Assembly (NCBI RefSeq): GCF_020520425.1
Contig: NC_079490.1
Span: 4,650,001-4,714,000 of the forward strand
Length of the DNA: 64,000 bases
Direction of reading: 5' to 3'
Source: Spinacia oleracea
Lineage: Eukaryota > Streptophyta > Magnoliopsida > Caryophyllales > Amaranthaceae
In this document: in pieces, positions 1,022 to 59,300 of the stretch
How the letters are laid out: each line of letters opens with the position of its first letter
Numbering within the stretch: the stretch's first letter is position 1
The notes under the pieces: generated by a model
Databases searched by the model: none
Seen by the model: the letters and a program-made list of their open reading frames with translations, nothing else
What the model was told of the DNA's origin: nothing
Position numbers and translations under genes: made by a program

Positions 1022-4000
1022 TTAAACACCAGCTGTTGATCGTGTACCATCTTCTTCTGAAACATACTTTCCTTTCGAACTTCTCTCATTCCGGCTACCT
1101 TCGGCGAACTTCATGCTTACTTTATGAAGCCCTAGTTCCTGCTCTGCAGCATCCCATTCCTTTATGTAATAATCTTCTTCAGTGACATTAGGTTTTGGGC
1201 CGAAAAACATACCGCCCCACTGGGGGAAGTTTATGGTACCTAAGCTTAAGGTGCAGGCTATGATCAGAATTCCCATGTAAGTTAGCCCGTCTTCTATTTT
1301 GAATTGTGATCCTCTGAAGAAGATTACTTGACAGATGACTGCACCCGCGTTTCCTCCTGCTCCTGATAAGCCCGAAACCACGCCCAATGATCTGAAAGAG
1401 AGAAGTAATATTAATATTAAGGCGAGGTGTGTTAGTATAAAATGAGCAAAAAAACTATCCTAGATCAGTTTAATAGGCAGGCCGGGCTGGGTTAGGGTCG
1501 AGCCACTGCAAAAAAATGGCTCATTATGTCGGACAAGGTTTGTCGGGCCAAACTCCGGGCCTGTGTTTCTGCCCAAATCCCGTTTTAGTGGGACATAATA
1601 AGTGGGCTTTTGCGTATTTTGGGTCGGGATAATTTTAAACTAGATACTATGTGTTGTCCAAAACCCAACAAAAAAATCAGACTGGGCCCGAAAAATGAGC
1701 CTAAAAATTCTGCCCAAATCTCGCTATTTTCAGGTCGGGCTCAAGATGGTCTGGTCAGGTCTATACCCTTCGCATGTCCTCAGGCGGGTAGGCTACTCTA
1801 AAAAAATACTAGGGTAATTAGGCCATTTTTGAACCCGGACAATCTTATAACTAAAATTCTAATTAAAGTTGCCTTTAATCAGATGGGTCGGGCCGGACCC
1901 GATAACAAGCATAAAATGTATATGTCACTGACTCACAACCCCTTGTTTTCAGGTCGGGATAGGTCAACAGGTAGGTCTACTTTTTTCATGAAAAAACTTA
2001 CTAGAAATGTTAATTTTTTTTATTTTGCGTGCGAATGAGTCACAAAGGACAAATTACAACTAGAATCGGGGGATTCAACTTTCGACCTATCAATCTCATA
2101 ATGTTAACCACTAGGCGAAGACCTCATTAGTTACAAGAAATGTTAGTTACTCCCTCCGTCCCAGAATACTCGACCCGGTTTGACCGGCACAGAGTTTAAG
2201 GGACTTGAATTGACTTATTTAATTTAATAGGTAGTAGACTAGTAGTTGATAGTGGGGTATTATTTTAATGTAGTTAGTGGGATGTGGGTTAAGAGGTGGG
2301 GTTGGGGGAGAGTAGGGGTTGAATTTTTAATTATTTTTTGTATGGAGTAGGGGGTAGGTGGGTTAATAGGGGTGAAGTGATAAATAATATATATAATATT
2401 GTTAGAATATTTCCATTTTTAGAGACAGGTCAAGTATTAAGGGACGACCCGATAAGGAAAACAGGTCAAGTATTTCGGGACGGAGGGAGTAGTCGTAAGA
2501 CCATTACCTTCTGGAGACAAAAGGAACGACCCCAAATGTGAGACCTTCAGCTGCCTGAACCAAAAACGAGAAGATCATCATAACAGCAATAGTAGCACTT
2601 AATGTATCGAGACGTCCCATAACGATACACATAACACCACTAAGTGTCTGAACACCCCACCACCCCCACAATCTCCCCCTTATTCCATACTTTTTCGCCA
2701 TGAAATCTGAAAACCAACCACCAGAAGACCTCGAAAAGATGTTAACCATCCCAAAAAGTGCACCAACAATCCCAGCTAAGTTCAAATTCAGGTTAAATCG
2801 ATCATAAAAGTAGAACACAATGATGTTCGTAACAGCTAACTCGACTCCAAAACAGAAGCCATAGCCTATAGCAGTAATCCAGCTTCTGTAATTAGTTACT
2901 GCATGGTAAAAAACTTTGGAAGCTTTATCTTTATGCATTTCACCAGATTTCTGCATCTGTAAAAAGTTACCGTCGGGTAAATCTTGTCCGAAAAGCATGA
3001 CGGCGAAAGCGGAGAACATTTGTAAGAAAGCCGGGATGAAGAACGCCACCCTCCACGCCGTGAACGGCGTGGAGGCGGGTGTTTTGTTGAGGATTAGGCT
3101 GTAGAGGAGTGGCATGATTAGGTTTGCTACGCCTCCGCCGAGGTTTCCCCACCCGCCCGACTGCCCGTTTGCGAGGCCGACTACTTTCGGGGAGAACATG
3201 CAGCTCATCCAGTATTGGGTGGAGACGAATGTGGCTAGTGAAAATCCGGTGAAAAAACGCATGATGAAGAACCCTGTTGGGGTTCCTGCCATGGATGAGA
3301 GGAACACTGCGGGGACGGTGAGGAGGCAGACTGTTGCTGATGCGAGGCGTGGGCCGGTTAAGTCGCAGGCGGCGCCTAAGGCGAGGCGGGCGAAGATTGC
3401 GCCGGAAACCGATCCGACCCCGGCATTACCTGTTATGATCGGAAAACGTAATTAGCGTTAACCTTCTGTATTAGAATAAGTAAAAATCATTTTTGTATCC
3501 CCTACAAACATCGAAAAATTACTTTTTACCGCCTAAAAAAAAAGTAAAACTTGTATTTTTGCACCAAAAAAATAATTAATTTTTACCACATGAAAACAGA
3601 AAAATAAATGAAACTCTTGTGTGGGGTTCACTAATTCAATTTCCCTCCAATTTATTACACTTTCTGTGCGATTTTCTTTAACTCCTTTACCCTCTTCACT
3701 TTATTGCCATAGAATTTTGTCGAGTTAGTGAATTAATGGAAGGACATGTGAATTCATAGAAGGGAGTTAAATACATAAAATTGTGGAAGAAATATCAGAA
3801 ACATTACCGTTTGCATAGATTCCCACATAAATGTTTCATCTATATTTCCATTTTCAGGTGGTAAATTCAAATTTTAGCTAGAATAAATAGGAAACCAATT
3901 TGACCGTTACTGATTAACGTTCATTATTCATAAGTGCTAGTCTATCTTGATTAATAATATAGCCGTATTATGGACCCAATACTAGTATACCAAACCCAAT

Positions 4001-24442: not shown

Positions 24443-25250
24443 GTTGTTTTGTACCAATTAAGCTAATTAAGTCGCACTTTCCAAAATTGCAATTCTCGTA
24501 AATTTTTATTTTCGTGCCTTGCACAAATAAATAGCCCACTTACCAGTCTGACCAATGAGTATACTCCACAATCCACATTCGTATGTTAGAGGTTGTTTTT
24601 TCTTCATCTTGTACGGCGTATAATATACTCCGTACGAAGTATGAACTTATCTAAATTTATCAAACTTGATTGATCTAATAGAACCTTATTATACTAATTA
24701 GAGGTGAGCAAAATAATTGAGTATTCATGTGCCGAACTGGAAATGGTTTGGATAATTCTGATTCCAGGTACTCCCTCCGTCCCAAATTAGTTGTTACACT
24801 TTCCTTTTTCGTCCGTCCCAGATTAGTTGTTACACTTCTAAATTAGGAATGACCCCACAATTATTATACTTCCTCCGTCTTTAATTAGTCGCAACGTTGA
24901 GAAATGGCACGGAGTTTAATGAGAAAGTTGAGGTGGGGTTTCTTCCCATAATGCCCATGTGATTACTTAAAATAAGAGAGAGAGAGAGAGAGATAATATT
25001 TGATTACATTAAAATAAAAGATGTGGACCATTATTTTCTGAAATTTATAAGTGGGGACCATAATCCCATGTGATCACGTGAAAATAAGAGAGAATAAATT
25101 TCTGAAATTGTTGGTAAAGTTCCCTCCAAAAGTTCCCTCCAAAATGTTAACAACAACTACAACCCTTTTCTGAATTTCACCAAATTTGGAGGCTGAAAAC
25201 AGTTCAAATTTCCCTCCAATATTTTAACAGCAAGTACAAAAAAAATTCAA

Positions 25251-25260
25251 CTATAAAAAC
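25251..25260 (+). promoter_or_regulatory. TATA box of the mariner transposase gene
   Basis: CTATAAAAAC about 190 bp upstream of the transposase ATG and within the mariner; placed correctly for a pol II core promoter. Inferred from sequence only. Confidence 0.6.
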
Positions 25261-25444
25261 AAGCAAAAGCCTCATTTTTCAGATAACAGTACACATCTAA
25301 AAAACACAATTCTTCAAACCAACACTTAAATGTAATCTTCCACTTGCACACACATCACTTTCGGGCAAAATTCTGGTCACGAGGAAGCACAGCGCAGAAC
25401 ACCAAAAGGCAGGCACGAACCGGCAACAACATCAACAGCAACAA

Positions 25445-26917
25445 ATGGACGATTATTCGGTTGAGGAACTTCTTGAACTTGAGGAACTACTCGAGTTTGA
25501 TCCGGACATGGAGGTATGGTATTCTGATGATGAATCTGAAAATGATGAAGAGGTAGAAAATTCAGCAGTTTTAAATAATGATAATCAAATACCTATTCGT
25601 AACTTAGGGGGTAGAACAACACAATCACGTGAATTAACCGATTTCCAAAGAAAACACATGATTGACAAACTTCTTTTGCTTGCAAATGATGAATTAAAAA
25701 TACCTCCACGTGCACAAATTGAAATTGCTCTAGAGTTTAATGTTTACAGAACCACTGTTTGGAGGTATTGGTCAAAAGCAAAAATACGAATTAGAAGGGG
25801 GGAAACGATAGATGTGAAGGGGCAGAAACCTGGTAAGGTGGGAAGGAAGTGTAAGGATTGGGACTTAGATCGACTACATGCTATACCGGTAGAAAAAAGA
25901 ACCACAATCAGAAAAATAGCAGATGCACTTGACATTCATCCATCAACAGTTTATAAACTAATTAAATCAGGGAAAATACGAGCATGTAGCAGCAGCCTTA
26001 AACCTTCTGTCACACCTACTCACAAGATAGCTAGAATTGCACATGTTTTGAGGCAAATTATTCCTAGAAATGTGAACACACCACCTAAATTTTCAGCAAT
26101 GTACAATGTAATTCACATTGATGAGAAATGGTTTTACATGAGTCAAAAAAGTCAGAAGTTTTATCTGTTTCCATGGGAAGACGAACCTTATAGAGCATGC
26201 CAAAACAAAAACTACATACCAAAGATGATGTTCATGGGTTGCGTAGCCAGACCTATCCTAGGAACAAATGGAGAAATATTGTGGGATGGGAAGATTGGTA
26301 TGTTTCCTTTCACTTACACTGTCGAAGCACAAAGAAGCTCAAAAAACAGAGACAGGGGCACACCAGAAACAAAGGCGATTGTAAGTATCACTAGGGAGGT
26401 TATCAGAGCAAAACTCATTGAAGAAGTGCTGCCAGCAATCATGGCCAAATGGCCTGCTAATGCATGCAAGGAGATATGGATTCAACAAGATAATGCTAAG
26501 CCACACATAAGTGTCGATGATGCCGAATTTAGAGCAGCAGCTACTAAAAACGGTTTTAAAATCAGATTAACATGCCAACCAGCACAAAGCCCAGATTTGA
26601 ATGTGTTAGACTTGGGGTTTTTCAGAGCTATTCAATCACTACAATACAAGGCCTTTCCTAAGGATACAAAGGAACTTTTAAAATCAGTGGAAGATGCTTT
26701 TCAAGCTTATGAACCAAGACTCGTGAACTACAATTGGCTACATCTTCAATATTGCATGTTGGAGATACTGAAAGTTGAAGGGTCAAATAAATACAAAAAC
26801 CCCCATAACAAAAAGCATGCAATGGACAGGTTGGGTATTCTCCCAACTCAAGTGGAGGTTCCAGAAGAGCTGATAGAAGAAAGCAGGAAGATTTTAGCAA
26901 GGGGGCCTACCAATTGA
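25445..26917 (+). CDS. Mariner-like transposase (DD39D), intact
   Basis: 490 residues in a single uninterrupted frame from an ATG. Catalyses cut-and-paste excision and TA-specific integration of the surrounding element in the nucleus. Residues 1-45 are acidic. Residues about 65-113 and 140-180 form two helix-turn-helix DNA-binding regions (FNVYRTTVWRYWSKAK; TIRKIADALDIHPSTVYKLI), separated by a basic stretch with GQKPGKVGRK. The catalytic triad is present: D226 in HIDEKWFY, D349 in QQDNAKPH and D389 in SPDLNVLD, with exactly 39 residues between the last two, the plant DD39D spacing. The gene is intronless; plant mariner transposases can contain introns. It sits about 0.6 kb from the left end and converges with the second gene. 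The intact frame and matching TIRs suggest recent activity, and it may also move the window's Stowaway MITEs. Confidence 0.96.
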   Translation: MDDYSVEELLELEELLEFDPDMEVWYSDDESENDEEVENSAVLNNDNQIPIRNLGGRTTQSRELTDFQRKHMIDKLLLLANDELKIPPRAQIEIALEFNVYRTTVWRYWSKAKIRIRRGETIDVKGQKPGKVGRKCKDWDLDRLHAIPVEKRTTIRKIADALDIHPSTVYKLIKSGKIRACSSSLKPSVTPTHKIARIAHVLRQIIPRNVNTPPKFSAMYNVIHIDEKWFYMSQKSQKFYLFPWEDEPYRACQNKNYIPKMMFMGCVARPILGTNGEILWDGKIGMFPFTYTVEAQRSSKNRDRGTPETKAIVSITREVIRAKLIEEVLPAIMAKWPANACKEIWIQQDNAKPHISVDDAEFRAAATKNGFKIRLTCQPAQSPDLNVLDLGFFRAIQSLQYKAFPKDTKELLKSVEDAFQAYEPRLVNYNWLHLQYCMLEILKVEGSNKYKNPHNKKHAMDRLGILPTQVEVPEELIEESRKILARGPTN

Positions 26918-27440
26918 AGAAGAAAGAAACTTTTTGGACAAACCCGGAGTGAAGAAGAACAACTTTTTGTGAAGATTCAACGTTTATGCAAAAACATTTT
27001 GTGAAGATCAAAGAATATTTGTAATTAATTTGAAGACATTGACATTTTGTGAAGATGTAGAAAACTTTTAGTTTTTGTGATGAAATTAGAGGTAAACCAG
27101 TTGGTAAATGAATGTAAATCCAACTACTTTTGTAAAAAACTAGATGGTAAATGAATGGAATGGAGCACCTTATTAGGCATTGCTGATTTCATGTTATTCG
27201 TATTTATGATCGACACTTATGTTTAATAACAAAGCTCTCAGGATTCCATCATTGAGCATTACATAATGGATGTGAGCATAACAGAAGTGTTGCCTCACGT
27301 AAATTGGGAACACCAATCTAACTCATGTGACGATCACACAATTTAGAAATAGGTGCACCAATTTGGTAGCAAGCACCTTGATCCCTCAAACATCCATTGA
27401 ATTTTTTTATTTTGTTTCATCATTTAACCTCCCTGTGACT
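26918..27440. other. 3' flank of the transposase gene
   Basis: AT-rich, with repeated AACTTTTTGTGAAGAT-like words near 26930-27060, which may be 3' UTR. No other gene seen. Confidence 0.5.
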
Positions 27441-27442
27441 CA

Positions 27443-27560
27443 GACAACTAACAACAGGCAACTGACAACAGGCAACTGACAACAGGCAACTAACAACAGG
27501 CAACTGACAACAGGCAACTAACAACAGACAACTGACAACAGGCAACTAACAACAGGCAGC
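27443..27560. repeat. 14-bp minisatellite (CAGGCAACTGACAA)
   Basis: About eight copies of CAGGCAACTRACAA with G/A variation, passing into a looser AACAAGAAACAACA/ACCCAACCAGCA region to 27790. It lies between the convergent transposase and second gene. The minus frame at 27518-27850 is its repetitive Cys/Leu/Trp-rich translation. Confidence 0.9.
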
Positions 27561-27859
27561 AGCAACATCAACCCAACAAGAAACACAACAGGAGGCAACA
27601 TAATACCCAACCAGCAGGCCAACCAGCAACACCAACCAACAAGAAACAACAACAAACAACACAAGGCAACATAATACCCAACCAGCATCGAACCAACAGG
27701 CAACCAAACCAACAACACAACCCAACCAGCATCAACCAAACAGGCAACCCAACCAACAAGAAACAACACAAGGCAACATAATACCCAATAACAATGATTA
27801 ATTGTAGAGTGGGTTAGAAAGTCTGACTTAGCTGGATTTGAAGCGCTCACAATACCAGA

Positions 27860-29231
27860 TCAAGTAGACCGAGTCTCATCCGAATCATAATTATCCGGTG
27901 GAGGTGAAGGTGAGGGGCTATCAAGATTACTCACTCCAAATTTGGGGTTCCTTTCACGTGATCGATCAGCAGACCAGATTATATGATTAGGCGTCTCTGG
28001 CGCAACTAAATTTTCATCATTCATTAGAGAATCTTGTGGAGGGGAAGTTGGCATTGTACCCTTAAATAAAACGACGGGAGGCGTGCAATAGAAAAACGGA
28101 AGCCTCATTGGCCTCATTGGCCAAGCAGGTGATGGTTGTTGTTGGATTGTTGTAGAGGTGGTGGATTTAGGTTCCACCTTCTTTGAAGACCTTAGTCCCT
28201 GAGCGGGGTTGTTGTAAGCACGCAACTTCCCTTTCAAATACTTGCAATAGCCGTCTGGATCGATTTCCGGGTCAGGCTGATCTTGACCTGAAAGCCATGA
28301 AACATCTTAGACAGTGTTGCATTGCTTGATCATTGTATACTAACAATCATTGTAAAAATAGACAACCTAATATTATTTGTAAATTATATTAATTCCTGAA
28401 TCTTAAAATCAAGATTTAAAAATATAAACAAAGAAGAGATTGACAAACAGATCAGAATATGAGAAGAAGAGAGAGAATAAATTACCAGATCAACCATTTC
28501 AATGACAATAAGAATCAAATAAAGAGCATAATCTACGACATTCAGATCAAAACCCGGTCCTACATCCAAAATCTGATCCACACCCACTCATAAACCCCAA
28601 AAAAAATTAAAATTTGAATGTAAGCAATGCTGGTTAATTATAATTTCTTTTGAACTTGTCCCAGAATTGGCAGAAAATCACAGCACAATTTGATCGATTC
28701 TTCGATTAAATTGTCGATCTTGATTAAAATAAATGCAACAAAGAGAGCCAAATAAAAGAGAAGCTATGATTATAAGAGCACTGGTGTTCTAAAATGCAGG
28801 AAACAAATGCAAGGGTAACAATCAAGACAGGAGTTATAAAAAATGCAGGAAAGAAATGCAAGGGTACCAATCAAGACAGGAATTATAAAACAAAGTTGCC
28901 AGATCAATATGCCCCCCAAAACCCACCCAACAATATTGATATTTTAGAATCAGGTCATCAGGTTTGTTGATGACACAAACCACAAATCTTCGAAACCAAT
29001 GATCAATATGCCCCCAAAAGTAAAATCAAGGTTAAGAATAGTTAAGAACGTAATTGCATTTTTGCACTCACCTTCATCGTCTGTGTTAGGGATGAACTCG
29101 TCAGATTCTTCAGAAGATGATGTAGAATCTGGTTCAGCCTTCCAATTTCTCGATCTCTTGGCCCTTTCCGATCTCCTTACCCACCTACTTAGGATCTTAC
29201 CCCGACGCGTATTTTCTTCCGATGAAGACAT
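27860..29231 (-). CDS. Unknown second gene inside the mariner (2 exons)
   Basis: Product unknown. On the minus strand, exon 1 is 29231-29072 and exon 2 is 28287-27860. The donor GAAG|GTGAGT and acceptor TTTCAG|GT are both strong and the phase fits, giving 195 residues. Residues 1-32 are strongly basic (MSSSEENTRRG, then RRSERAKRSRNW); about 35-65 are acidic and Ser-rich (SSSEESDEF, then DPEIDPDGY); the middle has KGKLRAYNNPAQGLRSSKK; the C-terminus is Pro/Ser-rich (SPSPSPPP) and ends DSDETRST. It shows no membrane segment and resembles no transposase, capsid or enzyme I know; the composition suggests a disordered nuclear protein. It lies wholly within the mariner, convergent with the transposase. 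It could be a captured host gene or an element-encoded accessory protein. A longer in-frame start at 29303 exists within the 22-bp repeat. Confidence 0.6.
28790..28895. repeat. Tandem 46-bp duplication in the second gene's intron
   Basis: Two copies of an ATGCAGGAAA-AAATGCAAGGGTA-CAATCAAGACAGGA unit. They fall between the two proposed exons. Confidence 0.8.
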
Positions 29232-29276
29232 AATCGATCCAAGATCAAGCAAATTATGATTGAAGTCGTGTAAAAG

Positions 29277-29590
29277 AAAAAACCCAGAAATTTGAAGATC
29301 CAAACCCAGAAATTTGAAGATCCAAACCCAAAAATTGTAAGATCATAACCCAGAAACCCAGAAATTTGGAGATAAAAACCCTGAAATTTAAAGATCAAAA
29401 CCCAGAAATCGATCAAACCCAGAAATTTGAATATCAAAACCCAGAAATTTTAAGATCAAAACCCAGAAACCCTGAAATTTTAAGATAAAAACCGGGAAAT
29501 TTGTAGATCAAAACCCAGAAATTTGAAGATCAAACCCAGAAATTTGAAGATCAAAACCCAGAAATCGAGTAATTTGAAGATCACGTGTAG
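29277..29590. repeat. 22-bp repeats (AACCCAGAAATTTGAAGATC) before the second gene
   Basis: About a dozen degenerate copies of AACCCAGAAATTTGAAGATC immediately upstream (minus sense) of exon 1. Such subterminal repeats near a mariner end may act as transposase or regulator binding sites, or simply as a minisatellite leader. That role is inference. Confidence 0.85.
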
Positions 29591-29702
29591 ATTTTTGAAG
29601 TTGAATTTGATTTATTCACCAAAAAAAATTACATGCACAACGAAAATTTGATCGATTGAGAGGAGGAAAAAACTAGGGTTCTTCATCGTGATTTTTGGGG
29701 GA

Positions 29703-29739
<37 letters not shown>

Positions 29740-30201
29740 GTTGTGACTTGTGAGAGGTTTCTAGAAATGAGAAGGTGGGAGTGTGAGTAAACTCACGTGA
29801 AAGGGGGGAATTGAAGGAGCACTTAATTTGTTAGGTGGGTGGGTTAATTAAATGAAAGGATAAGTATTAAATTTAATGATGGAAGTTAGGAGTATTTAGT
29901 AAGGGCAGTTTTGGTATTTTGTATGAAAAAGTTTACTAAAAATAGAAACGTTGCAAGTAATAAGAAGCGTCCATATAAGGAAAACGTTGCGACTAATTAA
30001 AGACGGAGGAAGTATTGTTTATCTCTTCCCACTAACTTTTTTTTGTTCCCATACCCTCTCTCTTTCAATAAAAAAATACCCCACTAACTTCTATCTCATC
30101 TTCTTTTTCAATAAAATAACAATTGATAACCAAACAACCACTTATCGCCTAAAACTTTGTGCAAATTGAAGTGTAACAACTAATATGGGACGGAGGGAGT
30201 A

Positions 30202-30833
30202 AAACAATTAAGAACAAGTATGTTTCTCCACTTGTTATCGGATCCGGAACCATAACGGTAAACGTAACAATTGGCCCGATTTTTACATAATTACAAATTT
30301 TCCATTGTAAAAATTATATAAGTGGGTACGCGGAAGTGGTACCGGATATGATACCCACTTCTTTGTACTCAATCCTAGTACTTTTGACCACATTTGATTG
30401 CAAGGGAGTAACGTTATAGAACATTATTTAAACTATTGACTTGATAAGAACTGATTACAACTTGCATGAATTAATCTGACCAAAAGTTTACTTATGAGGT
30501 GAAAAAAACTTACTAAGTATTTTGTAAAGTTAAAATAACGCACCACAAGTCTTTTTGTTGGACAAGGAGCTTGGAAGTAACAATTCAAATATTTAGACAA
30601 GTGATTTTTAAATTAACCAAATGACGATTTTGCTTTGATGCTAATGTAATTTATGTGTGCATAACTTCATATAAAACTATACAAGAATCAAAAGAGGGGG
30701 TAATTTAAAAGTTACAAGTATAGGTGCTTAAGATGTGCTCGACATCCATGGATGTTGAGATAAGAATGATGAACTTTTTTGAAATTTGCAACTCCTATCG
30801 TGTTCATTTTGATTGAGTTAGATTCTTTATGGT
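30202..30833. other. Spacer without a gene
   Basis: AT-rich DNA between the Stowaway/mariner nest and a hAT element; no coding or repeat structure that I can support. Confidence 0.5.
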
Positions 30834-32276: not shown

Positions 32277-35200
32277 TTGACAAAGAAGTCGACCATCTTT
32301 TCCATCCCCTCAGATCTTCTCCCTCGGCCCTCCATCTCTCTCCGGTCCGGCCACTCTCCATCTCTCTCAGGTCCGGCGACTCTCCATCTATCCGGTTCTC
32401 CCCGAAACACTCAAAGCTTAGCTCCTCGCACCGTTCCATCAAAATCCGCCAAAGGGTAATTTTCGATTTTTGTTTAATTTTAGAATAATTTATGTGTTCA
32501 TATTATGCTCCTGTAATTCTTGATCATATTGTTGATTTTGGAGTAATTTCGTGGATTTGTATATTTATTTAAGAGTAATGTGGTGGATTATTACTTGATT
32601 TTAGTGTAATCTTGTAGATTTATATATTTGTTCAAGAGTATTGTCGTGGATTTATACTGGATTTCAGAGTAATTTTTTGCTTTTGTAGGTTTATTTTAGA
32701 GTAATTTCGTTTAGAAAACTATTGTCATGATTTTCTGGGATTGATTGAGTATCATTTGTATGAATTGTATCAAAGGAGGAGGAATTAGGGTGTATAGGAG
32801 CTTGCAAATGTCTCAGTTTGGGGATGGGGTGGGGGGTGGGGGAGAGAATCGGATGTAAGCATTTGCTCATTATTTTTAGGTTATTGGATATTCCCAAATT
32901 AATAAGTCTATATTAAGTCATTAGGACATTAGGTGTATAAGCTTGTACTATCTATGTCCACCTGTGTTGTAGATTCGTAGTTGCTGAGGAGGGGTGGAGA
33001 ATAAATGAGGATCCTCATGGTGGATCGTAATCTCTTGGTTAGGAGTATGTTCAATCGTAATAGTGTTTTATCAAGTAGTAGCATCTTGATAATGGGGTAT
33101 GGCAGCGACTTTGGATTAAGATGGATTGGAGAACTTACACAAGTTCAATCTATGTTATATGAGTACATGATTGTGCAATGGAAAGTAAGTCTATATTAGG
33201 TCATTGGGTCTATGAGCTTTTACTATGTCTGCCCACCTCTATCGTAGATTCGTAGTTGCTGAAGTGGGGTGGAGAATGAATGAGGAGCCTCAGGGTGGGT
33301 CGTAATCTCTTGGTTATTATGTCCAATTGTAATAGTGTGGCACCGAGTCGTATCATCGTGGTAATGGGGTTTGGCAGCGACTTTGGATTAAGATGGATCG
33401 GAGAACTTACACAAGTTCAATATATGTTTTATTAGTACATGATTGTGGAACGGGATTTAAACTTGTTAATGATGTATGAATGTGAGATGTCACATCCGTT
33501 TGAAGCTAATTTCACCATCTTGCATCCTTCAGCTGAGATAATGGATTTGAGAACTTACACAAGTTCAATCTATGTTATATGAGTACATGATTGTGGAACG
33601 GGATTTAAACTTGTTAATGATGTATGAATGTTAGATGTCATATCCGTTTGAAGCTAATCTCACCATCTTGCATCCTTCAGCTGATAGTTAGGCACTATGA
33701 TTATTTTGCTTAGTTTTAGGTATGGGACTATGGGTGTCAAATACAAGTAGGTATATAGATGTCTGACTTGACATGGCTCAAAATTTAGGACCTGAATAGT
33801 TTGTAGTAAGTGGGGTACAGGCCGTATCGCCTAAAATCCAATTGTTATTTACTTCTATAGTTATATATAGCAGGGTAATTATTTTCTAACATCCCAAATT
33901 AGTTGTTCGGCTATTATTTCTAGATGGAGGAAATTGAATAGGCAAAGGAAGCTCCATTGTGTTCTGGAGCTCCCTTATCTAGAAAAGGTAGCCGTGAGCA
34001 TTGAGTATTGTCGTAGTTCCCTTGTGTTTTTGTTCATCATTTGTTTCCTCCTAGGCTGCTCTTTATCTCTCTCATTAGTCCTGCTGGTTCTTATAAGAGT
34101 TATCTTTTGGTGCTGTATGGAAATCACATTTCTTTCACCCAAGTTGGTTCTAGATGGACTGATGGACTAAGCAATGTGCTTTTGAAGTTTTCCTAGAATT
34201 AGTTCGATGAAGCTCTAATAAGCTGCAATTGGACAGTGGACACAATATTTATAAACAGTAAGAGGGATTCATGTTACAATAGAAGTGTATAAATTATCAG
34301 ATGAAGTTTGGGGTCAACATTTACAACAGTTAACGGGCTTGAACTGTTACTCCTTTATTTTTGAAGTGTAGCGGAATATACTATGTTGTTGGTGATTGTC
34401 CAACTTGTGGCTCTTGGCGTTTCAAAATTCTAGAAACCTTTTGGGCTTGAAAGTGTCAGAAATCCATCTGAATTATCCCGAAACACACCCTGGGGGCATC
34501 TCAAACGATTCTGCTGTAACAACATCTGATTCATAGTTTATAGAAACATTTTGCAGTACAATATTTTTCTGGGTGGATGTTGCAGAGTTTCACTAGAATA
34601 GCTTCTTCTTCCGCCAGTTGAGATCTAGTGGCACAAGGAACTACATATATAATTGTGAAAGCCAGTTTATAATAATATTGTTTACTTTCTGTTTTCACAG
34701 GAAATTTTATTGCCAATACTAAACTACAATGGCCACTTTTCTGCCTGCGACCACGGACTCCCTTGCACAGGCTCTAGAAGCAAGTAGCACTGCAGACTCC
34801 ATCTTAATTCTGCAGAGATTACTTGCAGATCCTTCTTCTTCGCCTGATGCTTTGCGCATAAAGGAACAGGCAATCACAAAGCTCACTGATTATCTCAGGC
34901 AAGAAAACAAGGCTGAAGATCTTCGGATTCTTCTGACCCAGTTGAGGTCCTACTTTTCCTTGATCCCCAAAGCTAAAACTGCGAAAATAGTGCGTGTAAT
35001 CATCGATACGGTGGCTAAAATACCTAATTCAACCGAACTCCAGATCTCCCTTTGCAAAGATATGATACAGTGGACTCGTGATGAGAAGAGAACTTTCCTT
35101 CGCCAACGGGTTGAGGCCCGACTTGCTGCTTTGTTAATGGAGACCAAGGAGTTTCCCGAAGCATTGTCTCTCCTCTCAGGTCTGATAAAAGAGGTAAGAA

Positions 35201-35994
35201 GATTAGATGACAAACTTCTCTTAGTAGACATTGAGTTATTAGAGAGCAAACTTCATTTCTCTTTGAGAAACCTCCCGAAAGCCAAGGCTGCCCTAACTGC
35301 AGCTAGAACAGCAGCCAACGCCATATACGTGCCGCCAGCTCAGCAGGGGACAATCGACCTGCAAAGTGGGATACTTCATGCCGAGGAAAAAGACTATAAA
35401 ACTGGATACAGTTACTTCTATGAAGCTTTTGAGGCCTTCAATGCTCTTGAAGATCCAAGAGCAGTATACAGTCTGAAATACATGCTTTTGTGCAAAGTCA
35501 TGGTGAATCAAGCTGATGATGTTGCTGGAATCATATCTTCGAAAGCAGGGTTGCAGTACTTAGGCCCGGATCTTGATGCCATGAAAGCTATTGCTGATGC
35601 TTATTCGAAGCGTTCTCTGAAACTCTTTGAGGCTTCATTAGTGAACTTTAAGGCTCAATTGCAAGAAGATCCGATTATTCACAGGCATTTATCATCTTTA
35701 TATGATACTCTGTTGGAGCAGAATCTTTGCAGATTGATTGAGCCGTTTTCAAAGGTTGAGATCTCCCACATTGCAGAACTGATCGAACTCCCCGTTGATC
35801 ACGTGGAGAGGAAATTGTCTCAGATGATTTTGGATAAGAAATTTGCAGGGACTCTTGATCAAGGTGCAGGTTGCCTCATTATCTTTGATGATCACAAAAC
35901 TGAGGATATATATGAAGCTACACTGGATACCATTTCGAATGTTGCGAAGGTTGTTGATAGCCTCTTTGTCAGATCTGCTAAGATTATGGCTTAA
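32277..35994 (+). CDS. RPN6: 26S proteasome non-ATPase subunit RPN6/PSMD11
   Basis: The coding exon is 34729-35994 (421 residues, uninterrupted). The start given here includes a CT-rich leader exon (about 32277-32455) joined over a 2.2-kb 5'UTR intron (donor GG|GTAATT at 32456, acceptor TTCACAG ending at 34700); this leader is inferred. RPN6 is a lid subunit that braces the 19S lid to the 20S core in cytosol and nucleus. Landmarks: TTDSLAQALEA at the start, TPR-like helices with KEQAITKLTDYLR and EARLAALLMETKEFPEALSLL, the highly conserved KLHFSLRNLPKAKAALTAAR and YVPPAQQGTIDLQSGI, then the C-terminal PCI domain (about residues 225-395) with LCRLIEPFSKVEI and LDQGAGCLIIF, ending VRSAKIMA. Length matches plant RPN6 (about 420). 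It was first considered as eIF3m, another PCI protein, but these motifs are RPN6-specific. Confidence 0.95.
32930..33670 (+). repeat. Duplicated blocks in the RPN6 leader intron
   Basis: A block with GTAGATTCGTAGTTGCTGA and GGCAGCGACTTTGGATTAAG occurs at about 32970-33180 and 33245-33430. A block beginning GAGAACTTACACAAGTTCAA occurs three times (about 33128, 33402 and 33550), followed twice by TTGAAGCTAAT-TCACCATCTTGCATCC. These are local tandem duplications; no coding role is seen. Confidence 0.8.
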
Positions 35995-54870: not shown

Positions 54871-56004
54871 ATGAGAATATCAAACCCAAATCATATGCCG
54901 TTGCACTTATGCGAAGAGATATTGGCGAGGCTTCCGGTAAAAGACCTGTTAAGATTCAGGTGTGTCTGTAAATCTTGGCGTTTAATTATCGATTCGTCTG
55001 TGTTCACTGATATGCATCTTAATCTCTACAACAAAAGAAATCAACATAAAAACTATCTTGTATTATGTGCGGATTACAATTCGAAACCAAGTCTTTGTCG
55101 TTTTTGTTACATCAACACGTTTCGCCGAATTGATGAACAAATTGTGATTCATCTTCCTAAGTTTGGATTTTGCCTTGTTATTGGGAGTTGTAAAGGGTTG
55201 TTGTTGATAAATAATGGCTTTATCAAAGACGAAGAAACAAGCTTAAGATTATGGATTTGCCCTATTTCAGACCATAGTCAATATGTTGTGGGATTTGCCC
55301 CTTCGAGTAATGACTATAAGGTGGTTGCCTTTATTTGTAAGTCAGAAGTTTCGAAGACGGTTTCGATTGCCGTTTATTCACTTCGTGATCGCCTGTGGAA
55401 GGTAAAAAACAACACGATGGTTATGAACTCTAAGTGGCATGGACAAAGACAATTACGATTGCATGATATTATTTTCGTAGGAAATACTGCATACTGGTTT
55501 GAAATTTGTCCTAATGATAGTGATTGGTACGAAGACAAACAAGACCGTATTATCTCGTTTGATTTCGATGTGGAAGAAATGAACCTTTTGGAACTACCGG
55601 ATCAGGTCGAAGGGAAAGAAATAATAGCTAGGTTTTTATGCAGCATAGATGATTCTTTAGCAGTTTTTATCCTATCTACCGAGAACATTTGTGTATGGAT
55701 ACTCGAAAAAGATCGTGGCAGCAGTAAGGCACCGTGGAGGCCATGGTATTCTTGGAAAACAAATGTTGATATTCGCGAGTTATTTCTTGAAAATATAGAT
55801 CGTTCGTTACCTTCAAAGACCATTTATCTCCAAAACATTAGTACGTTTTTTATGAAGTTAAAAAAACAATTAATAACTTATAACATCACAAGTCATGAAT
55901 TTCAGTGTGTGATAAAAAAGTTTTACGGGAATATTGATACTTATGCGGAGAGACTAAATCTTGGGAGCCAAGTTTCTCTTTTTGTTAATAAATTTCCTTT
56001 TTAG
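54871..56004 (+). CDS. F-box protein with F-box-associated domain
   Basis: 377 residues from ATG 54871; the open frame extends upstream only through non-ATG codons (GTG at 54850). The F-box is at about residues 7-48 (LCEEILARLPVKDLLRFRCVCKSW, IIDSSVF, HLNLYNKR), followed by an F-box-associated region with GSCKGLLLI, LWICPIS, VGFAPSSNDYKVV, VAVYSLRDRLWK, DIIFVGNTAYWFE, ISFDFDVEEM and CVWILEKD. This is the standard layout of SCF substrate receptors of the large plant FBA group. It has no introns. The last about 18 residues (from AERLNLGSQVS to KFPF) are encoded by the repeat shared with 47655 and 51391, so the C-terminus coincides with duplicated DNA. No frame break. Confidence 0.9.
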   Translation: MRISNPNHMPLHLCEEILARLPVKDLLRFRCVCKSWRLIIDSSVFTDMHLNLYNKRNQHKNYLVLCADYNSKPSLCRFCYINTFRRIDEQIVIHLPKFGFCLVIGSCKGLLLINNGFIKDEETSLRLWICPISDHSQYVVGFAPSSNDYKVVAFICKSEVSKTVSIAVYSLRDRLWKVKNNTMVMNSKWHGQRQLRLHDIIFVGNTAYWFEICPNDSDWYEDKQDRIISFDFDVEEMNLLELPDQVEGKEIIARFLCSIDDSLAVFILSTENICVWILEKDRGSSKAPWRPWYSWKTNVDIRELFLENIDRSLPSKTIYLQNISTFFMKLKKQLITYNITSHEFQCVIKKFYGNIDTYAERLNLGSQVSLFVNKFPF

Positions 56005-56165: not shown

Positions 56166-56381
56166 CTTCCTCCGTCTTGTAATACTCGCAACGTTTGTTA
56201 GTTTCACGCATGCCAATGTACAATTTTGATCATTTATATCTTAAATTCTCTTTATGCAAAAATTATAAAAACTTTGATATTTTGAAAATACACATTGAGA
56301 CGAATCTAACAAGATCCCACATGACTATATATGAATAGTGGCAAAAGTCCAAACGTTGCGAGTATTAAAAGACGAAGGAAG
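56166..56381. mobile_element. Stowaway-type MITE, 216 bp
   Basis: CTTCCTCCGTCTTGTAATAC at the left and CTTCCTTCGTCTTTTAATAC inverted at the right, both leading to CTCGCAACGTTTG; TA at 56164-56165 and 56382-56383. Its termini closely resemble those of the mariner at 24869-30012 (CTTCCTCCGTCTTTAATTAG, then CGCAACGTT). Confidence 0.92.
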
Positions 56382-57495: not shown

Positions 57496-57960
57496 ATGGC
57501 AGATCTAAATCAACTCGAAAGGAGAAGGAGTCTCAGGTTGAAGAAGACGATCATAACAACATCAGGCGACGAAGACCTCAAGTATCTGCCGCCATGTGTA
57601 TGGCAAAAGATATTGGCGAGGCTGTCAGTAAAAACCCTACTAAGATTCAGATGTGTCTGTAAATATTGGTGTTCAATTATTGATTCGTCTGTATTTACTT
57701 ATATACATCTGATATTAGCAAGGCTGCCGGTAAAAACCCTATTAAGATTCAGGTGTGTTTGTAAATCTTGGTGTTCAATTATCGATTCCCCCGATTTTGA
57801 TCAACTGCATCTTAGACTCTACAACAAAAAAACCAACCATTATTATAAAGATAGATTGACTATGTTGAGTTACGGGGGAGAACGACATGAATTCTATGTT
57901 TCCCGTCGTCGTTTTCCCGAGTTTGGCGACAGATTATATAATACCCAGCAAATGCTTTGA
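57496..57960 (+). CDS. Short F-box gene with duplicated F-box, FBA domain missing
   Basis: 154 residues from ATG 57496. The F-box core is repeated: a 102-bp unit (57609-57710) is followed directly by a second copy (57711-57812), so the protein carries ILARLSVKTLLRFRCVC...SIIDSSVF and ILARLPVKTLLRFRCVC...SIIDSPDF in frame. Only the first copy has the preceding LPPCVWQK start; the second begins inside helix 1. After LHLRLYNKK about 45 residues follow and the frame stops, without the GLLL and LWNP-type F-box-associated region. It closely resembles the gene at 54871. It may be a decaying gene or encode a small F-box-only protein; the frame itself is undisturbed. Confidence 0.7.
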   Translation: MADLNQLERRRSLRLKKTIITTSGDEDLKYLPPCVWQKILARLSVKTLLRFRCVCKYWCSIIDSSVFTYIHLILARLPVKTLLRFRCVCKSWCSIIDSPDFDQLHLRLYNKKTNHYYKDRLTMLSYGGERHEFYVSRRRFPEFGDRLYNTQQML

Positions 57961-57961
57961 A

Positions 57962-59300
57962 CCAATTAGTTCGATTGATTAAGTAATTAATTCCAGTGCT
58001 TAATTAATTGGTTTCATTGCTTAACTAATTGGTTCAAATGCTTAACTAATTGAATTTTGGCCTTAATTAATTGAATTTTAGGCTTAAATAATTGAATTTT
58101 AGACTTAACTAAAACACGATAATTCTTAACTAACAAAATAGTTAACATATAAAGATAAATAGTTAAACTTATGAATCGAATAGTTACGATTTATAAAAAA
58201 ACTTATTATTATCGTGTTTTAGTTACGATTTATAAACAAACTCATTATTAATTAAAACTCCGAAAATCATAACTAAAACTCATAAAATCTTAACTAATTA
58301 GTTTCAATGCTTAACTAATTGGGTTCATTGATTAACTAATTGATTCCATTGCTTAACTAATTAGTTATTAATTTTAACTAAAACACGATAATTTTTAACT
58401 AAACCAAAGAAAATCTTAACTAAAACCCTTAAAATTTTAACTAATACTTAGAAACACGTAACTAAAACACGATAAAATCTTAACTAAGCTTAAGAAAATC
58501 TTAACTAACAAAATAGTTAAGATATAATTCTCAACTAATTGATTTCATAACTAAATATGCCAAAATTATAACTAAAACGGAATAATTCTCAACTAAAAAC
58601 ACGATAATTCTTAACTAAACCTAATAAAATGTTAACTAAAACTCGCAAAACCTTAACTCAAAGGCACGTAACTAATTGTTTTCATTGCTTAACAAAGTGG
58701 TTCAAATGCTTAAGTAATTGGTTCAAATGCTTAACTAATTAGTTCGATTGCTTAACTAATTGGTTTCATTGCTTAACTAATTAGTTCGATTGCTTAACTA
58801 ATTAATTCAAGTGCTTAACTAATTAGTTTCGTTGCTTAACTAATTGGTTCAAATGCTTAACTAATTAACTCTAGTGCTTAACTAATTGGTTCAAATGCTT
58901 AACTAACTAGTTCGATTGATTAACTAATTAATTCAAGTGCTCAACTAATTGGTTTCATTGCTTAACTAATTAATTCAAATGCTTAACTAATTGGTTTCAT
59001 TACTTAACTAATTAATTCAAATGATTAACTAATACTCATATAAACTTAACTAAACCACAAAAAATAACTTAAATGCAAAATATAACCAACACAAAAATTA
59101 ACGTAAATACAAAAAGTTCAAACTCGTTATATTTCATAACTAAATGTAACCATTATACAACTAAAATGAAATTATCATAATTAAAACAAAATAATAAAAA
59201 CTAAAGTGAAGTAAATCATAACTAAATCAATATTATTCTTAACTAAAGCAAAATAGATAATAACTAAAACATCATTATTCTTAACTAAAAGTGAATTACT
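57962..59300. repeat. Long array of TTAACTAATTGGTTCAAATGC units
   Basis: About 1.3 kb of tandem units of about 21-23 bp with the constant core CTTAACTAATT followed by GGTTCAAATG, AGTTCGATTG, GGTTTCATTG or AATTCAAGTG. It is most regular at 58680-59030 and degrades to TAACTAAAACACGATAAT-like units in 58100-58650 and after 59030. Starts just after the stop of the F-box gene. Stop codons occur in all frames. Confidence 0.93.

Follow-up and report, generated by a model that had tools for sequence, protein, structure and literature searches.

Mariners are held to be minimal one-protein transposons. The subject here is a mariner of spinach (Spinacia oleracea) that does not fit this description. It lies in a stretch of 64,000 nucleotides (contig NC_079490.1, positions 4,650,001 to 4,714,000; C4:4650001-4714000 in the genome search), hereafter called the window. 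Between its terminal inverted repeats (TIRs), the element carries a transposase gene and, convergent with it, a second gene of two exons. This second gene of a DD39D mariner is genuine, and we infer that it encodes an element-borne accessory protein serving the mariner cycle, a reading to which we assign a probability of about two in three.

Mariners have been described as usually encoding a single transposase (PMC4423477). The structure of the plant elements, PlantMar (Soymar1, Osmar, Vulmar1, Dcmar1), is called typical for Tc1/mariner, with sizes of 2-6 kb (PMC7325037). Carrot mariners measure 1.9-4.9 kb, and transposases alone are mentioned in the available text (PMC6881990). The window element shares with PlantMar the TA target site, TIRs of the CT.CCTCCGT type, and a DD39D transposase, and its 5.1 kb falls within the published range (PMC7325037); the DD39D triad, the short TIRs, and the TA target site were each tested and found. 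Unlike PlantMar as described, it carries a second, convergent gene. The usual account of a mariner with the transposase as its sole protein, which does not itself define PlantMar, thus does not apply to it, as the second gene shows exon-limited conservation. No description of a second gene in plant mariners was found in titles and abstract openings of a mainly open-access literature that covered few subscription journals.

The closest parallels in layout come from other groups. In MuDR of maize (mudrA/mudrB), a transposase gene and a gene for a protein of unknown function converge between the TIRs (PMC3440606). The window element resembles MuDR in this layout, although the two belong to different superfamilies. 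VANDAL21 of Arabidopsis is a plant DNA transposon with an accessory gene, VANC, near noncoding tandem repeats (PMC5735166); it is also of another superfamily. Pack-Mariner elements hold non-transposase coding DNA between mariner TIRs (PMC8903248). However, elements of the Pack-TYPE class have no functional transposase and contain fragments of host genes, whereas the window element keeps its transposase and no host paralogue of its second gene was found. The Tec/TBE elements of ciliates are Tc1/mariner relatives with three open reading frames (ORFs), one of them in the complement (PMC7325037), but they have very long TIRs, other proteins, and other hosts.

The original prediction of a spliced, convergent, two-exon gene of 195 codons inside the mariner is upheld by its frame, its splice-site scores, and its exon-limited conservation in copies. 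Splicing from position 29072 to 28287 yields 195 codons from ATG to stop, with agreeing phases. When scored with approximate weight matrices, the donor (AAG/GTGAGT) is equaled or exceeded by 3 of 6,773 GT sites in the window and the acceptor by 112 of 6,585 AG sites, each count including the site itself. At the observed splice-site strength, this is the sole two-exon model of at least 150 codons on either strand of the 64 kb. When the 3.1 kb that follow the transposase were shuffled (order 2) under the same splice constraint, none of 2,000 shuffles reached 195 codons; loosening both splice sites by 3 bits raised this to 2 of 1,000, and by 5 bits to 8 of 400. The GC content is 46% in each exon as opposed to 32% in the intron, and fitted GC break points (29063/28297) fall 9-10 nucleotides off the splice sites. 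Support from codon usage is only mild: its score is reached by 5 of 811 noncoding windows and very nearly by one antisense frame.

The decisive support for the second gene is the conservation of its exons in other copies. The genome search covered 894,210,420 bases in 242 contigs, and its counts are lower bounds. That other mariner copies should contain the gene had been set as a check beforehand, and at least nine copies with it were found. The second gene matches at 98-100% over its whole length in the window, L009, L010, and L011. It matches at 93% in L012, and both TIRs are present in L009-L012. More diverged or broken copies are found at L013, L014, L015/L016 (split), and L017. The alignment of exons and intron took in eight of the nine copies, leaving out the split one. 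Relative to the window, L014 retains 95.6% identity in exon 1 and 94.6% in exon 2, as against 56.9% in the intron, which has 206 gapped positions; all 195 codons of this copy are free of stops and gaps. Similarly, L017 has exons at 91.2% and 91.3% and an intron at 59.8%, its frame showing a single stop and a single gapped codon, and L013 has exons at 98.8% and 98.4% and an intron at 85.6%. L009-L012 are too similar to the window for such a contrast. Among ten pairs drawn from the window, L012, L013, L014, and L017, the ratio of nonsynonymous to synonymous divergence (dN/dS) is 0.50-0.87. The transposase frame is without stop in the window and L010, and interrupted by stops in L009, L011, and L012. 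In these last three copies, the second gene is stop-free, with 9 gapped nucleotides in L011 and 1 in L012.

Comparable genes accompany most other mariner lineages sampled from this one genome, the sample being drawn from the best-scoring transposase matches. A transposase search in which 87 of 579 first-look candidates were scored gave at least 88 matches and defined 30 loci, L022-L051. Ten of the loci belong to the window family, and the remaining 20 were examined on the strand convergent to the transposase, over 1.5 kb in all 20 and over 3.3-4.4 kb in 15; two window-family fragments (L035, L042) and L039, which is the same place as L016, are outside the 20. A convergent, acidic, Ser/Pro-rich ORF or remnant lies downstream of the transposase in 17 of them (L029, L030, L031, L032, L033, L034, L036, L037, L038, L040 as a remnant, L041, L044, L045, L046, L047, L048, and L049), broken by a stop or frame break in L036, L038, L046, and L048. 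In all, a second gene is carried by nine of the ten transposase lineages into which the loci were grouped; between lineage representatives, transposase identity is 39-67%. The premise of the original prediction, that plant mariners encode only the transposase, therefore fails for this genome.

Ten further loci were tried for a TIR pair, with mismatches counted out of 28. A TA-flanked pair encloses both genes in L029 and L031 (1 mismatch each), L032 and L037 (2 each), and L045 and L047 (4 each). For L034, L041, and L033, no enclosing pair was found, and that of L036 is poor (8 of 28). Both genes thus lie within one TIR pair in seven lineages, the window family included. L031 has a further TIR-like pair outside the inner one, 796 nucleotides upstream and 2120 nucleotides downstream of the transposase match (2 of 28 mismatches); this mariner, too, may therefore be nested in another element. 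At L049, a transposase of the L047/L050 clade (1501-2676) stands beside a second gene of the L045 type. This may reflect module exchange or two neighboring elements, and because the affinities of the two genes differ, L049 may not be one element.

The second proteins appear to form a loose family, acidic and Ser/Pro-rich, of about 120-215 residues, present in most lineages examined. The nine lineage representatives have isoelectric points (pI) of 4.2-5.6, and S/T-P sites number 38 versus 23.3 expected, the motif described below itself being counted. Neither the window protein, seven further second-gene proteins, nor a candidate from L051 has a Pfam match at the family cut-off, and a comparison of the window protein with the PDB returned one match, at E 0.34. 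The structure predicted for exon 2 from its single sequence has no secondary structure and a pLDDT of 54.5, and is uninformative. No relatives were found in IMG/VR contigs, GTDB genomes, or plasmids, as expected for a plant gene.

Short motifs recur among these proteins. The motif [ILVA]P[EDNS]TP, which in the window reads LVAPETPNHI, is found in seven of nine lineage representatives versus 0.045 expected from residue shuffles, for a pattern chosen after seeing the proteins. Of the 55 convergent ORFs with at least 80 residues, 12 contain it, as compared with 0 of 39 other-strand and 0 of 60 upstream ORFs (controls 0 of 99); the 12 are not independent because they are drawn from seven lineages. 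Over all frames, there are 16 hits versus 0 in 54,605 codons each, and in the whole window the motif is found once in 127,996 codons. An acidic C-terminus of the SDE/SDET type, also chosen after seeing the proteins, marks five of nine representatives (window, L044, L034, L045, L047). Local alignment controlled for composition gives z scores of 7.9 for window-L041, 5.6 for window-L045, 4.4 for window-L034, and 8.2 for L044-L045.

Selection was tested on the widest pair of each of eight lineages. dN is below dS in seven of the eight, with p<0.05 in five, and the combined one-sided p is 6e-8; leaving out L045-L049, the pair with the strongest signal, it is 2e-4. In that pair, of which only the second gene is concerned, dN/dS is 0.30, and coding identity is 78% versus 60% in the flanks. 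Coding sequence is also kept better than flanks in L033-L036, L045-L046, and L047-L048. Another eight-pair set, with window-L014 and L013-L017 in and L034-L070 out, gives a combined p of 8e-8. Outside the test stand nine other window-family pairs and L033-L037 (dN/dS 0.57), L045-L046 (0.70), and L034-L071 (0.55). Apart from L045-L049 and L034-L070, ratios are mostly 0.5-0.7. Neutral decay of the frame, which the original prediction had named as a refutation, is therefore not general, although in the pair L034-L070 no constraint is seen. The picture is one of weak constraint together with the decay of dead copies, as in a fast-evolving element protein.

Table 1. Coordinates of the mariner, its two genes, and associated features in the window.
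Feature	Position	Strand	Details
Stowaway-like element, left part	24769-24868		inverted repeat
Intact DD39D plant mariner	24869-30012		5,144 bp; TA on both sides; perfect TIRs
Left TIR	24869-24898	+	inverted-repeat search
Transposase	25445-26917	+	490 aa; frame open
CAACA-rich tandem arrays	27441-27759		between the two convergent genes
Second gene, exon 2	28287-27860	-	ends at stop; carries VAPETPNH and C-terminal YDSDET
Second gene, intron	29071-28288	-	784 nt; GT..AG; phase 1; GC 32%
Two-copy 49-bp repeat	28791-28890		in second-gene intron
Second gene, exon 1	29231-29072	-	codons 1-53 plus one base
Tandem array, 22-bp unit	29279-29565		about 13 copies; between second gene and right TIR
CT tract (GA on +)	29707-29736	-	upstream of second gene; candidate leader or promoter zone
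Right TIR	29983-30012	-	inverted-repeat search
Stowaway-like element, right part	30013-30201		inverted repeat

The element itself is well defined (Table 1). With the TA counted in, its ends (24866-24898 and 29983-30015) are complementary over 33 of 33 nucleotides, and the flanks read ATTATA and TATTGT. At up to 3 mismatches, the TIR has no match in the window other than its own two ends. The inner 8-mer of the right TIR, GCAACGTT, is found again at 29947 on the same side, and AACCCTAG at 29680 lies beside the CT tract. For the transposase, Pfam gives HTH matches and, below threshold, a match to DDE_3. Its catalytic residues are D226, D349, and D389, and since 39 residues separate the second and third, the spacing is DD39D. 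A leader intron was considered for the second gene; the enhancer motif TTNGATYTG is absent from the 751 nucleotides upstream. A nested foreign transposon with inverted ends was also considered and rejected, as the inverted-repeat list for 24740-30220 contains only short or poorly complementary arms inside the mariner.

The mariner is inserted into a Stowaway-like element of 287 nucleotides, and ends of the CT.CCTCCGTC type are found in both. Elsewhere in the window, a miniature inverted-repeat transposable element (MITE) of about 216 bp (56166-56381) matches the mariner TIR at both ends (31 nucleotides, 87%) and is possibly a non-autonomous relative. A tandem array with 21-bp steps (57896-59096) adjoins a reading frame that we take to be F-box-like. 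Among the other frames, 1022-3451 presumably encodes a nitrate transporter, 34729-35994 a proteasome subunit, and 54871-56004 an F-box protein.

How would an accessory protein act? It may be an intrinsically disordered adaptor, which would use its [ILVA]P[EDNS]TP motif and its acidic tail of the SDE/SDET type to dock either a host factor or the transposase. Pointing this way are the missing domain, the exon-2 structure prediction (weak, being from a single sequence), the surplus of S/T-P sites, the one short conserved motif, and the acidic tail. Such docking would support the mariner cycle through nuclear delivery, insertion, or protection of the element's own transcription. The long spacers would supply a promoter for the second gene and a buffer between the converging transcripts. 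The role would resemble that of mudrB, the partner of mudrA in MuDR, no descent from mudrB being implied. The original prediction had offered two ideas, a captured host gene or an accessory protein that aids transposition or silencing escape. The second is the better of the two, with its function a matter of inference.

Several observations weigh against this reading. It is drawn from sequence, and as no domain is known, the role of adaptor is guessed from composition. Homology between lineages rests on short motifs and composition-controlled alignment. Of 45 pairs, 12 score above z 3, among them L045-L049, a pair within one type, and only 7 do better than all 400 shuffles. L033 exceeds z 3 with no partner, and its tie to the others is through motif, place, and orientation only. 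The strict motif is missing from L029 and from L044 but present in L032, the sister of L044. No recognized homologue of the second gene was found in 3 of the 20 loci: L043 is a transposase fragment of the L034 lineage; the downstream part of L050 matches its near relative L049 over only 181 nucleotides past the transposase; and the third is L051. Coding identity is not above that of the flanks in L029-L030, L031-L038, L033-L037, and L034-L070, the last of which has a dN/dS of 1.26 with flanks at 88%. In most pairs, dN/dS is about 0.5-0.9. As a separate observation, the high-copy family of L051 (L051, L063, L064) has a different two-exon convergent candidate without the PETP motif, in which the first part ends in GEGDSDE and the second in SASASDDA.

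The weak constraint, the value for L034-L070, and the loci without a recognized homologue would all suit an old acquisition that is functionless for the element. Such a passenger gene is nonetheless improbable, as conservation is limited to exons, the frame is intact in L014, seven of eight lineages show dN below dS, and the gene persists across lineages with only 39-67% transposase identity. Host origin was addressed directly. A captured host gene, a mariner version of Pack-MULE, would account for the intron and the separate leader region, and Pack-Mariner elements are known in rice (PMC8903248). However, a search of the whole genome with the 195-residue protein (E<=1; 23 of 23 candidates scored) gave 22 matches, all within the nine mariner copies. 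Likewise, the L034 protein has five matches at three places, every one beside mariner transposase sequence. Capture is unsupported because the matches are confined to the nine copies and comparable genes, alike in place and orientation, are found in nine lineages; it would have left no donor in the genome at the search sensitivity used. The open 490-residue transposase frame and the lack of any host-gene match among the 22 also set the element apart from Pack-TYPE. We therefore regard this first idea of the original prediction as very improbable.

The alternative that deserves the most attention is an anti-silencing protein like VANC, which would bind noncoding tandem repeats of the element and remove or block DNA methylation. 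VANC targets are arrays of tandem motifs in noncoding parts, introns included (PMC5735166). Candidate targets are at hand in the arrays on the leader side, in the intron, and in the spacer (27441-27759, 29279-29565), and exon 1 opens with a basic stretch, net +7 across residues 1-34. Even so, Pfam recognizes no DNA-binding domain, and the acidic composition of the proteins does not suggest DNA binding, which leaves this role unlikely. An explanation at the RNA level would make the frame incidental and the convergent transcript an antisense or double-stranded control of the transposase. The convergent layout permits this, and MuDR antisense transcripts arise if termination fails between its two genes (PMC3440606). 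Yet conservation is limited to exons, protein motifs are shared, and dN is below dS, and there is thus very little to commend it. Finally, the gene model has a weak point in the length of the exon-2 ORF, which is unremarkable by itself (matched in 83-105 of 1,000 shuffles). From ORF length and codon usage by themselves, a chance frame in noncoding transposon DNA could not have been dismissed. The splice-constrained shuffles and the exon-limited conservation rule it out, and with the shared protein motifs and the relatives in other lineages they make chance a negligible explanation.

The reading of the second gene as an accessory gene of the mariner may extend beyond spinach. With somewhat less than even confidence, we suggest that plant DD39D mariners are ancestrally two-gene elements whose second protein, fast-evolving, disordered, and motif-bearing, is needed to amplify in plants, and whose unusual length is largely a second, convergent transcription unit. 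Its lack of a domain, its rapid evolution, and its occasional splicing would explain why the second gene has been overlooked. A second gene under selection in most mariner lineages of one plant genome would explain why plant mariners measure 2-6 kb, and the second protein would be a concrete missing component for transposition assays. Such a gene would also change the view of how plant mariners and their very numerous Stowaway MITEs spread.
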